DNA of 33,079 nucleotides from a virus. Position 1 is the stretch's first letter. Every line of letters starts with the position of its first letter. Shown here one piece after another: positions 28,059 to 31,952 of this stretch. The notes beneath the pieces are model-generated. The model did not search any database. It saw only the letters and a list, made by a program, of their open reading frames with translations, and was not told where the DNA came from. Both the position numbers and the translations under genes were made by a program. The DNA lies in IMG/VR virus record IMGVR_UViG_3300022745_000117, positions 1 to 33,079 of that record. One strand, written 5' to 3'.

Positions 28059-28645
28059 AGTTTGCCTCCTATCCGTTCTCGCTCTACCCCGCCGATTGCA
28101 GGGAGTTCGGTCATGGGTCGCACCGCCTCTTTTGCCAGTACGCTCTCTGCCGCCTTGTTGACATGCCCTATCAAAACGCCTTGAGGTGTCTCCGATTGGC
28201 ACAGGTCAATCCACCCGCCGAGTGCCTTTACCACCTCTAAGGCAGGGAGAGAAAGCGGAGGTGCGCCCTGTGCGTAGTAGCCGCCTTTTGTGCCGTCATC
28301 ACGCTCGTACTCCACCCACACGCCGCAGGAACCGTAACTCGAAATCTTGTCGAAAATCTCCTGCGCTATGTCTGCCACAGTGGTCTGCCCCTGAACCGTG
28401 AACCGTTTCGCGATTGCCAGCACGTCCGACGGCTCCGGGACGTAGTGAACGAAATCGCCGCTCTGTGCGGGCTTGAATAGCATCTCGCGAATCACGGCAG
28501 GAATGAACTCGACGGGTATCATCCTGAGTGCATCGAGGAAATGTCTGCTCGTTCGTGCCGAAAACTCGCGTCGGTTCCTCTCGAAAATCGCCTTGATGTC
28601 TGCCAAAGCGTCTAAAATTATCTCTTCGCCCTCTTGTTGTGTCAT
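28055..28645 (-). CDS. Possible helicase-loader-like replication protein, 196 aa
   Basis: The gene is coupled to the replisome organizer gene by an ATGA overlap and has AGGAGG upstream. The N-terminal half is helical: FSARTSRHFLDALRMIPVEF, then VHYVPEPSDVLAIAKRF (about residues 66-82), a layout reminiscent of SPP1 G39P-type helicase-loader/inhibitor proteins. The C-terminal half has a possible beta domain (SCGVWVEYERDDGTKGGYYA). No Walker motifs are visible, so it is not an ATPase loader of the DnaC kind. The assignment rests on place and weak similarity. Confidence 0.45.
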   Translation of the reverse strand: MTQQEGEEIILDALADIKAIFERNRREFSARTSRHFLDALRMIPVEFIPAVIREMLFKPAQSGDFVHYVPEPSDVLAIAKRFTVQGQTTVADIAQEIFDKISSYGSCGVWVEYERDDGTKGGYYAQGAPPLSLPALEVVKALGGWIDLCQSETPQGVLIGHVNKAAESVLAKEAVRPMTELPAIGGVERERIGGKL

Positions 28646-29511
28646 CAGTACGCCTCCTGTAACAACGCCCTTATTGCGTCGCGGTCATCCTGCAACGTTT
28701 TGCCCCGCTTTTCAGGGGGTAGCCAGTCTTTGCCAACACTCTTGTCCATCACCGATTTGAGGTAGTTCCCCATCGAGCGGGCAGAAAATCGGGCTATTTC
28801 GTCCGGGCTTCTCGCTTTGCGTAGCACCTCTACCGCCGCGTTAATCCGCTCTGGGGCATAGCCGAGCGAAACCAGTTCTGTGTACCACGCTTCGCCCTGC
28901 ATAGAACCGCCCTGTATCACTGCCCTACCTGCCGCATTACGCCGCTCTTGGGCAGGAGTGACAATCTCAGAGGGGAGGAGTGTGTGTGTGGCGTTGTCGG
29001 CAGTTGCGTCGCCGCTTGCGCCCGCGTCTCCCACACACTCTGTATCTCTCTCTGTATCTACATCTTTATCTCTATCTACATCTACATCTATGCTTGTTAC
29101 ATTTGTTTCACTTGTTACATGGCTTGTTTCACTTGTTACAAGGGGGTTGCTTCCCTGTTCTGTAACAAGTTTTTTGTCTGCCCTGTGCCTTCTTACGCGC
29201 TCACGGTTGGATTCGGGAGACCATGAAGGATAGTCAGGAGTACTCTGCCATGATGTCCAGTTGTGGGGCGACAAACCCTCTTCGTGGCTATCTATCAAGT
29301 GTCGCTTTGCCAGTTCGGATATTGCCGATTCTGCATCCTCTTCACTAATTCGCAAGCGGAAGGCAATGGTCTCCATGTCTGGCAATAACCCCCGATGCTC
29401 ACTTTTATTAGCCAGACAAAGCAGATTAACCCATATTTTGAAAAGTGGTGCAGGTAGTTTCTGCACCTTCGGGTCATCTATCACATCGTCTGACAGTCGT
29501 AGCCACTTCAT
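28645..29511 (-). CDS. Phage replisome organizer (replication initiation) protein
   Basis: The N-terminal region (about residues 1-90) begins MKWLRLSDDVIDDPKVQKLP and has LISEEDAESAISEL-type winged-helix layout, as in phage replisome organizer proteins that bind the origin. The centre is an unstructured, repeated linker (VTSETSHVTSETNVTSIDVD, then Asp/Arg-rich), and the C-terminal region (about 180-288) is helical, probably for helicase/loader contact. The gene contains the 9-bp repeat array described separately, as in lambda O and many Gram-positive phages where the origin is inside the initiator gene. SD GGGGTGAGA precedes the ATG. Confidence 0.8.
   Translation of the reverse strand: MKWLRLSDDVIDDPKVQKLPAPLFKIWVNLLCLANKSEHRGLLPDMETIAFRLRISEEDAESAISELAKRHLIDSHEEGLSPHNWTSWQSTPDYPSWSPESNRERVRRHRADKKLVTEQGSNPLVTSETSHVTSETNVTSIDVDVDRDKDVDTERDTECVGDAGASGDATADNATHTLLPSEIVTPAQERRNAAGRAVIQGGSMQGEAWYTELVSLGYAPERINAAVEVLRKARSPDEIARFSARSMGNYLKSVMDKSVGKDWLPPEKRGKTLQDDRDAIRALLQEAY
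29041..29169. repeat. Iteron-like 9-bp array and adjacent simple repeat: candidate replication origin
   Basis: CTTGTTACA occurs at 29093, 29111 and 29132 and inverted (TGTAACAAG) at 29161. Closely related 9-mers, TTTGTTTCA at 29102 and CTTGTTTCA at 29123, fill the places between, making back-to-back 9-bp units. Just beside them (29041-29092) is a 6-bp-type simple repeat of TCTACA/TCTATC that could unwind easily. All lie in the linker region of the replisome organizer gene, matching the lambda O/ori arrangement. Confidence 0.7.
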
Positions 29512-29512
29512 A

Positions 29513-29701
29513 CTATCTCACCCCTTCCTTAAACAAGTTCCCCACGATAAAACCCCTCACATCCTCCCCAGAGTAGTGAGGCTCCTTGAGGCTGTAGGTC
29601 TTGAATCGAATGCGTCCTGCACGTTGCGAGAGCCAGTGTTTTGCGTCCGGTACAGAACACCCTAGTAGTTGCGCCACCTGTGCTATCGTGAGCCATTCCA
29701 C
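29513..29701 (-). CDS. Small excisionase-like HTH protein, 62 aa
   Basis: The N-terminal (GTG) EWLTIAQVAQLLGCSVPDAK (residues 1-20) is a MerR/excisionase-type helix-turn-helix, followed by a wing-like FKTYSLKEPHYSGEDVRGF. Such proteins bind and bend DNA or regulate early genes. GTG start is one base after the helicase-methyltransferase stop (TAG A GTG), and the stop is next to the replisome organizer start, so it belongs to the replication operon. No specific role can be given. Confidence 0.65.
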   Translation of the reverse strand: MEWLTIAQVAQLLGCSVPDAKHWLSQRAGRIRFKTYSLKEPHYSGEDVRGFIVGNLFKEGVR

Positions 29702-29702
29702 T

Positions 29703-31952
29703 CTATGCCTCTGCTCCGAAAAGTGTCTCTAGTGATTGCTGTCCTGCGCTAATGGTTGCGCTCTCTAGGTTCCGTTTCGCTATCTCAAAATAGGAGGGCT
29801 TCAACTCTATCCCTGTGAACTTCCTGCCCATTTTAAGAGCCACGTACCCCTCGCTACCTATCCCCGCAAATGGTGAGAGTACGTTGTCGCCCTTGTTTGA
29901 CCATAGCGCAATACACCGCTCTATCACATCCAGTTGCAGGGGGCAGAGATGCTTTTCGTCTTTCTCGCCTTTCGCAATTTGATAGTTCAAAACTTTAGTC
30001 TGGTCTATATCCATCCATACAGGAGAAGCCCACTTCTGCCATTGGTCAAGAGGGAATTCAGATTCCGTGTGATACACTGGGTTCTCTGTAATAGAGTTAG
30101 CCATCCCGTCCCATTTGCGGAAAACTACCACGTAGTCCGCTTTGCCCTGCCTCGAAACGCAGGAGTTTTGCTTGAGGTTTTTGTAGAGAAGCCCGTGATT
30201 CTTAGTGCGAACCATCTCGGTTACGGGGCTTTTCCATATCGTAACTTTGGAATGGTATACCCATCCTTCTTCAACGAAAAGACGGGTTATCATGCCGGGA
30301 AAGTCTACCAACCCCGTTACCCCGCTATTGGCGCGATTGAGCGACAAGTCTTGACAATGCACCGCCGCCAATCTACCTTTCATGGTTACTCTTCTGAGTT
30401 CTCTCACAAGAAAACGAAAATGCTCTATAAACTCATCCGTGTTGGCGCAATTCCCCATGTCTGCCAGAGCGTCGCTATACACGAACAGGTTGGCAAACGG
30501 TGGCGAGAATACAGACAATCCGACGCTTTCAGTTTCGATGCCATTGATAACGTCGCAAGAATCGCCATTCCAGAGTTCCCAATTGCATCCTCTGTAAACA
30601 GATTGAGGGTATTCCATTAAGGACTTGCGCCCCTTTCTTGTGAGTTCGTGTTCTCCCATTGCTTGCCTCATGTGCGTTGTCAACTCCTTATGTCGAATTT
30701 GTTTCTGGTTTATGGCTTTCCACATATCCTGCTCGCCGTCGGCAATTACCACATGGCAACGAACTTCATTCTGTTGACCGTATCGCCAACACCGTCGCAG
30801 TGATTGATAGAACGATTCGTAAGAGTAGGAAAGTCCCATAAATACCACGTTGCGGCAGTGTTGCCAGTTCATTCCGAACCCCGCTATTTTGGGCTTTGTT
30901 ATGAGTTGATGAATAGAACCATCCGAAAACCCTACGAGCCGCGACTCTTTATGAGTAGTGGTATCGCTCCCCTTTACCTCAACGGCACGTGGTAAAACTC
31001 TTCTGAGTTCATTCGCTTCATATTCCGTGTTACACCAAATCAAAACTGGCTCATCCCCGAAACTCTCCACAAGTTCCGCCACCTTCTCGGCGCGAAATGG
31101 AGCGGATGCTCGCGCTACGTCATGGAGTTTAGTCGCGCTCAAACTTCCCATATTAAAAAGCACGTCCGTTCGAGTTTGGGGAACATCCACAACATGACAA
31201 TTCATTTCAAGGGGTATAGAATCATATCCCTGTTTGGGGTATCCTAAATCAGCGGGAGAGGTTAGAGAGACTGCCCACGAGCAAACCCACGCCCAGAAAT
31301 CACCTTGCCCGTGATTTTTGAGTCTAAACTCCCCCGCATTGAATGTGTCGTTTATGAACCATCTCGCAAGCATTTCGGCGGCGGGCATAATCCCTAGAAA
31401 ATCGGAGTGGTTGCCTATTTCAGTATGGTCATTGGGAGAAGGGGTCGCCGTCCATGCGCTTTTATACGGGGTGGCGCGAAACATTTCCGTCAATGCCATC
31501 TTAGTGGAGCCGTTTTCCGATTTCAGGATAGAGGACTCGTCGAGCGCAACCGCAATAAACTGCGACGGGTCGAATTTATCAAGCATCTCGTAGTTCGTGA
31601 TATTGATACCGGGCTTTACATCCTCTTGGGTTCGGCAAACTGTGACATTACGCCCGAACTTCTGCCCCTCTCGGTAGGTCTGATGTGCAACGGCGAGAGG
31701 GGCTACTATGAGCGCATTCCCTCCTGTAGCGTTGCATACCTGCCAACACCACTCTAGTTGCATCGCGGTCTTGCCTAGCCCGCAGTCAGCGAAACAGGCA
31801 AACTTGCCGAGTTCTAACCCCCATAGAACGATGTCTTTTTGGAAGTCAAACAGTAGTGGGCTGATGTTAGAGGGAGATACATCTACTCCCTGAAACGTTG
31901 GGGAAGGTTGCTTCCCTCTCAAAAACTCTTTGTACTCTAATGCTGTAGTCAA
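29703..31952 (-). CDS. SNF2-like helicase fused to a beta-class DNA methyltransferase
   Basis: The 749-aa protein has two enzymes. Residues about 30-440 form a superfamily 2 ATPase: Walker A ADCGLGKTAM near 55-64, DEXX-type ALDESSILKS near 136-145, TATPSPND near 168-175 and motif VI YQSLRRCWRYGQ near 382-393. Residues about 455-735 form an amino-DNA methyltransferase with motif IV FSPPF (482-486) before motif I PFAGIGSEG (694-702), the beta-class order, for N6-adenine or N4-cytosine. Such fusions occur in phages and probably protect or mark phage DNA. No nuclease domain is visible. TTG start at 31952 is supported by AAGGAG 7 bases upstream. Confidence 0.85.
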   Translation of the reverse strand: MTTALEYKEFLRGKQPSPTFQGVDVSPSNISPLLFDFQKDIVLWGLELGKFACFADCGLGKTAMQLEWCWQVCNATGGNALIVAPLAVAHQTYREGQKFGRNVTVCRTQEDVKPGINITNYEMLDKFDPSQFIAVALDESSILKSENGSTKMALTEMFRATPYKSAWTATPSPNDHTEIGNHSDFLGIMPAAEMLARWFINDTFNAGEFRLKNHGQGDFWAWVCSWAVSLTSPADLGYPKQGYDSIPLEMNCHVVDVPQTRTDVLFNMGSLSATKLHDVARASAPFRAEKVAELVESFGDEPVLIWCNTEYEANELRRVLPRAVEVKGSDTTTHKESRLVGFSDGSIHQLITKPKIAGFGMNWQHCRNVVFMGLSYSYESFYQSLRRCWRYGQQNEVRCHVVIADGEQDMWKAINQKQIRHKELTTHMRQAMGEHELTRKGRKSLMEYPQSVYRGCNWELWNGDSCDVINGIETESVGLSVFSPPFANLFVYSDALADMGNCANTDEFIEHFRFLVRELRRVTMKGRLAAVHCQDLSLNRANSGVTGLVDFPGMITRLFVEEGWVYHSKVTIWKSPVTEMVRTKNHGLLYKNLKQNSCVSRQGKADYVVVFRKWDGMANSITENPVYHTESEFPLDQWQKWASPVWMDIDQTKVLNYQIAKGEKDEKHLCPLQLDVIERCIALWSNKGDNVLSPFAGIGSEGYVALKMGRKFTGIELKPSYFEIAKRNLESATISAGQQSLETLFGAEA

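Follow-up and report, generated by a model that had tools for sequence, protein, structure and literature searches.

In phage lambda the iterons of ori-lambda lie within the gene of the initiator O and adjoin an AT-rich unwinding region. The lambda iterons are longer than the repeats described here, and O belongs to another protein family. Further parallels are the lactococcal phages TP901-1 and Tuc2009, in which the initiators (ORF13 and Rep2009, respectively) bind direct repeats located in their own genes, and these repeats are the phage origin (PMC8965321). A note in the Tuc2009 sequence record likewise supports origin repeats within the initiator gene. Plasmids with RepA_N initiators offer another parallel: in pSK41 the origin lies midway along the rep gene and encodes a dispensable linker; RepA has a winged-helix N-terminal domain, which itself contacts DNA, and shows similarity to DnaD (PMC5703833).

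The window, i.e. the whole stretch of DNA analysed, comprises 33,079 bases (53% G+C) and is a virus record of IMG/VR. It meets the criterion exemplified by TP901-1 and Tuc2009, direct repeats within a replication initiator gene, and here too the repeats encode the region between the N- and C-terminal parts of the protein. The repeated 7-mers of TP901-1 and Tuc2009 differ, however, from GTTAC, and their initiators have no match to PF09681. We consider it likely that the array represents the iterons of an origin embedded in its own initiator gene, and that it is read in part by a basic helix of the latter. The relevant features are the following.

28645-29511, minus strand: replication initiator / replisome organizer gene, 288 aa (PHROG and PF09681 profiles)
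29275-29511, minus strand: N-terminal winged-helix domain, residues 1-79 (AlphaFold, pLDDT 61-94 by block)
29182-29208, minus strand: putative recognition segment NRERVRRHR, residues 102-110 (tracking of motif classes)
29155-29217, minus strand: isolated basic helix, residues 99-119 (AlphaFold, pLDDT about 70)
29161-29169, minus strand: inverted iteron copy (TGTAACAAG on the plus strand), read as LVT (sequence match)
29132-29140, plus strand: iteron CTTGTTACA, third copy, part of the 11-bp odd palindrome CTTGTTACAAG at 29132-29142 (sequence match)
29123-29131, plus strand: iteron variant CTTGTTTCA (sequence match)
29111-29119, plus strand: iteron CTTGTTACA (sequence match)
29102-29110, plus strand: iteron variant TTTGTTTCA, two changes (sequence match)
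29093-29101, plus strand: iteron CTTGTTACA (sequence match)
about 29039-29091, no strand assigned: GAT/GTA-repeat tract (TCTACA/TCTATC), candidate unwinding element (low stability)

The initial annotation had described five tandem 9-mers, three identical and two variant, in two blocks three bases apart, plus one inverted copy. All were found in place, the blocks being divided by TGG at 29120-29122. The exact 9-mer occurs four times in the 33,079 bases, always in the array (three direct copies and the inverted one), and none of 100 dinucleotide shuffles of the window gave three TGTWACA separated by short gaps. One lone extra TGTAACA is located at 28658-28664, 430 bases away from the array, near the 3' end of the initiator gene and in another frame (TTG TTA CAG).

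The location of the array inside a likely initiator gene also held, since the product matches DnaD-like replisome organizer families. PHROG profiles of DnaD-like helicase loaders / replisome organizers match its N-terminal half; phrog_10469 is the best (E 2.2e-15), and phrog_2447, phrog_186 and phrog_4880 match as well. The protein alone scores 20.2 bits against PF09681 (Phage_rep_org_N), for which the curated cut-off is 23.3, and 23.7 bits when in-frame neighbouring sequence is included; judged from these scores, membership in the family is marginal. In the tree, the protein is found with L162 on a long branch, and its placement is uncertain. The Pfam matches of the protein include neither lambda O nor bZIP, and RepA_N is absent from those at E 0.1.

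In the AlphaFold model the winged helix (about 1-77) gives way to disorder and then to the basic helix 99-119. Next comes a disordered linker, encoded by the array together with the GAT-rich tract, and the C-terminal domain is helical. The mean pLDDT is 60, low overall; therefore, only the winged helix and the existence of the basic helix have been used. A distant member, L407, was modelled as well, with similarly low overall confidence; its winged helix is likewise followed by an isolated basic helix (106-128) and a disordered linker. The best structural matches of the modelled winged helix are themselves winged helices, LexA and RepA_N N-domains among them, at Z 6.4-7.3, with no family standing out. 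RepA_N N-domain structures (4pql, 4pt7, 5kbj, 4pta) are thus among the matches, but at Z 6.4-6.9 they are tied with unrelated winged helices, and the protein lacks a Pfam RepA_N match. Foldseek returned nothing at E<=0.001, and a search of one copy of the PDB revealed no solved structure of a relative. The initial annotation had also noted that a repetitive protein linker is entwined with the DNA repeats, and indeed the iterons encode the linker joining the winged helix to the C-terminal domain. R110, the last residue of the putative recognition segment, is the sole invariant residue in an alignment of 20 sequences.

A small HTH_17/excisionase-like protein is encoded immediately upstream of the initiator gene (29513-29701, minus strand). 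A DNA N6/N4 methyltransferase fused to a helicase is encoded at 29703-31952 (minus strand), and has hundreds of relatives in viral contigs, the best at 45-53% identity. Searches for RNA families and tRNAs found none.

Repeats in coding DNA may simply mirror a repeated peptide. According to this explanation, the 9-mers would be a by-product of slippage in a linker rich in VTSET units and written in AT-rich codons, and the DNA as such would have no function. The linker peptide is itself repeated, and the four exact 9-mers of the window are all in one frame (VT), so that evidence from reading frames must come from relatives. To assess chance, amino acids were kept fixed, synonymous codons were reshuffled, and the occurrence of four copies of one 9-mer was scored. 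The probability was 0.0002 when codons were shuffled gene-wide, 0.0016 with the codon usage of the window, and 0.037 when shuffling was restricted to the linker, the strictest null. Under the latter the probability for TGTWACA was 0.24, and to this extent the by-product explanation is accommodated. The inverted copy, in contrast, reads LVT and not VTS.

The simple repeat reported beside the array is present as well. It codes for the acidic part of the linker, D-V-D-V-D-R-D-K-D, and windows of 40-60 bp in the 29039-29091 tract fall within the least stable 0.1% of the record. In relatives, GA/TA-rich repeats after the array exceed the synonymous expectation. The GC-skew analysis proposed by the initial annotation was carried out, and yielded a monotonic skew; as almost every gene lies on the one strand, this carries no information.

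No close relatives of the initiator protein were found in viral or genome contigs, and the helicase-methyltransferase and terminase loci led to a single recognisable homologous initiator fragment (L013); the array of the window is therefore not directly comparable. The nearest relative found, with 37% identity across 39% of the protein, is encoded by the Bradyrhizobium phage ppBjS10J-1, which carries at the same place GCGTTACG ... GCGTTACGTAACGGTGTTCGTAACGGCGTTACA, then AGATACAGATACAGATATA. The linker peptide is different, and the GTTAC/GTAAC core is read in three frames, as L-R, R-N and V-T. What the two phages have in common is thus the DNA motif, not the peptide.

Viral contigs were then scanned for TGTWACA clusters. 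Many coding clusters are low-complexity repeats (e.g. VTGNVTGD), and a cluster by itself is therefore not diagnostic. The matches include initiators of three N-terminal Pfam families, namely PF09681 (L187, L240), DUF1376 and Lin1244_N. In the DUF1376 (L168, L223) and Lin1244_N (L234) initiators the TGTWACA arrays lie right behind the N-domain, and in L168 and L223 an acidic or DR-repeat tract comes after the array. Genes of the PF09681 type were collected from viral contigs and Firmicutes genomes, giving a set of 64 non-redundant genes which includes the window and L162. The lactococcal TP901-1, Tuc2009 and r1t initiators fall outside the family defined by this profile. GTWAC was found 101 times in the linkers of the 64 genes, against 53.6 +/- 4.5 expected under synonymous shuffling, and the best repeated hexamer of each gene was significant (p<=0.05) in 25 of them. 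Linker motifs could be sorted into four related classes, GTWAC, GTTGC, GTSAC and GGACA, represented by 96 classified family genes. The definition of these classes rests on the very data from which they were first proposed, and roughly one quarter of the first 64 genes remained unclassed.

The motif occurs in at least two reading frames in 93 of the 96 classified genes, the window being one of the three exceptions, which indicates that the DNA is under selection. The condition set by the initial annotation, that the 9-mer be kept while codons drift, was satisfied strongly in relatives for the motif core, peptide and frame both changing around it. The pair formed by L393 and L394 shows a switch of all copies. 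Their N-domains are 95% identical, but the motif classes differ (GTTAC and GTTGC, respectively), and the base change is found throughout the array: TTA CAA TGT AAC .. GTA ACA in L393 corresponds to TTG CAA TGC AAC .. GCA ACA in L394. The substitution is silent in two frames and replaces Val by Ala in the third. As read from these sequences, the pattern is what selection on a DNA site predicts, and not what selection on a peptide predicts; whole arrays change in concert and the peptide follows. Motifs read in two or three frames, and arrays switching base in concert over these frames, already contradict the by-product explanation at the family level, and for the window we deem it very unlikely. 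Selection on the array as DNA is demonstrated for the family by this comparison, which is one of sequences only.

Changes of motif class are many on the N-domain tree. The alignment used to look for correlated residues was made blind to class, and fixed columns were compared. A class-blind comparison of whole tails had been dropped because the motif itself encodes linker residues within them. In related pairs, the two columns that best separate the classes are both in the basic segment behind the winged helix. At the column of V106, 20 of 25 GTWAC genes have V, as does none of the 35 others (Fisher p 1.3e-11). The five GTTGC genes all have S there, and K is found in the majority of GTSAC and GGACA genes; the latter two classes tend to differ three residues further on (Q/E and Y/A/Q, respectively). 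Accordingly written as patterns, RVxx(H/Y/F)R pairs with GTWAC and RSRK(H/S)R with GTTGC. The segment ERVRRHR of the window predicts GTWAC, matching its array, but the window was part of the training set. Most of the uncertainty of the residue-motif relation resides in the small classes GTTGC and GTSAC.

The relation was evaluated in several ways. Among six phylogenetically independent pairs joined by supported branches, 5.5 agree on average and none is opposed (median p 0.03). In leave-one-out prediction the segment assigned the correct class to 42 of 48 genes and the rest of the domain to 25; barring neighbours with more than 60% identity, the figures were 42 and 20. These numbers are somewhat optimistic, since reference segments were picked by class-specific patterns. 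In an initial hold-out of 12 genes the result was weak, mainly for GGACA, with 7 correct predictions from the segment versus 5. A prediction rule was subsequently fixed in writing, and new genes were fetched and scored. Of the new genes, 27 were both classed and called by the rule, and 24 of these calls were right (binomial p 1.1e-5 versus the commonest class); assignment by nearest neighbour, judged from the remainder of the domain, was right for 17. The rule was silent on nine classed genes; four of these, as well as L416, have N at the V106 column together with GTSAC. This pairing of N (R-N-x-x-Y-R) with GTSAC arrays, seen in L416, L518, L519, L521 and L526, was not part of the pre-written rule. 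Counting motifs only downstream of the segment left the class unchanged in 96 of 96 genes, and tracking is thus not due to overlapping codons. In the genes compared, it is established that motif class follows residues of the basic helix. No published account of such a relation was found in the open-access literature.

Segment and motif may travel together for another reason. The codons of the segment directly adjoin the array, and class switches are frequent on the tree; neighbouring tracts could be exchanged jointly by recombination, the actual specificity residing in the winged helix or elsewhere. The same pairing of residues and motif is, however, found in clades in which the preceding residues differ (SESxSA and KIREQT), for which recombination would have to break within the span of a few codons. 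The poor predictions obtained from the rest of the domain, in both the leave-one-out set and the 27 new genes, also speak against joint exchange, which we hold to be rather unlikely without discarding it.

Since motif class tracks residues of the initiator, the initiator is indicated as the binder. Short direct repeats are common binding sites and binding data are lacking, so one may imagine that some other protein, for instance a transcription factor or the DnaA of the host, recognises the array. A scan for DnaA boxes gave one match in the window, against 1.6 expected, about 1 kb from the array, and tracking with residues of the initiator would not be expected if another protein were bound. 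Recognition by a different protein appears very unlikely. The initial annotation had indicated the N-terminal domain as the binder; the initiator's residues do track the motif, but the tracking ones are in the basic helix, not in the winged helix as a whole.

The basic helix recalls the basic region of eukaryotic bZIP proteins. In Pap1, residues N86, A89, Q90, F93 and R94 contact a TTAC half-site (PMC7261193), and sites of NFIL3 and C/EBP include TTAC and TTGC (PMC10941009). The window residues N102-x-x-R105-V106-x-x-H109-R110 have the same spacing as the five Pap1 residues. The corresponding segment of ppBjS10J-1 is N-A-E-R-Q-K-N-F-R, and the array of this phage holds CGTTACGTAACG. The bZIP signature NxxAxxx(S/C/F)R is nonetheless not met, as the window has NxxRVxxHR, with Arg for Ala, and the Asn of the segment is not kept in all clades. 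No leucine zipper is found after R110: ADKKLVTEQGSNPL lacks a leucine heptad, and the modelled helix stops at 119. By analogy, the segment may function in the manner of a bZIP basic region, but it is not a bZIP and no descent is claimed.

It is conceivable, though we would not yet favour it, that a large family of phage initiators uses a single bZIP-like basic helix, endowed with a switchable code between residues and bases, to recognise sites located in its own linker in any frame. The code would then associate V/Q with TTAC, S with TTGC, K/N/M with TGAC, and K plus another partner residue with GGAC, an assignment as tentative as the reading it belongs to. If true, prokaryotes would have converged on bZIP recognition, and phage origins and replication incompatibility would be predictable from few residues.

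In the origin model that we prefer, the N-terminal module, made of the winged helix and helix 99-119, would bind TTGTTACA sites, the DNA of which doubles as code for a flexible linker. The basic helix, through N102, V106, H109 and R110, would account for at least part of the base readout. Several initiator copies would gather on the array and the GAT-rich tract beside it would open, with the C-terminal domain assisting in the loading of the replicative helicase. Binding, melting, helicase loading and origin activity are only inferred, in the absence of experiments. The candidate origin suggested by the initial annotation has therefore gained support from selection on DNA and from the tracking of classes by residues, whereas origin activity itself is inferred from the precedents of TP901-1, Tuc2009 and pSK41.

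None of the data reported here shows where replication starts. The array lies within a transcribed gene, and bound initiator could block transcription; the role of the bound protein could thus be to regulate its own expression or the copy number, replication beginning elsewhere. Yet the window does not contain a second array, the adjoining melting tract is kept in the family, and origins are known within genes of this kind. The two roles are moreover compatible, and we regard control in place of replication as unlikely.

Origins are unmapped in most environmental phages. Provided that iteron class tracks the helix for functional reasons, sequence data would allow origins and replication incompatibility groups to be inferred in an initiator family that is common. 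Natural pairs such as L393 and L394 are a direct experimental handle on changes of initiator specificity.

Two additional observations emerged from the contigs searched. At the initiator-like locus of L371 (794-2235) the stretch carrying the linker (DDVTSQKRHRNGDVTPPETETETETETDIN) is duplicated in tandem, in overlapping frames. Dense TGTWACA clusters in two orientations, devoid of long open frames, are found in the unrelated viral contigs L180 (1751-1854), L165 (5652-5726), L166 (660-726), L174 (3037-3103) and L191 (3511-3800), and possibly are further origins or operators.
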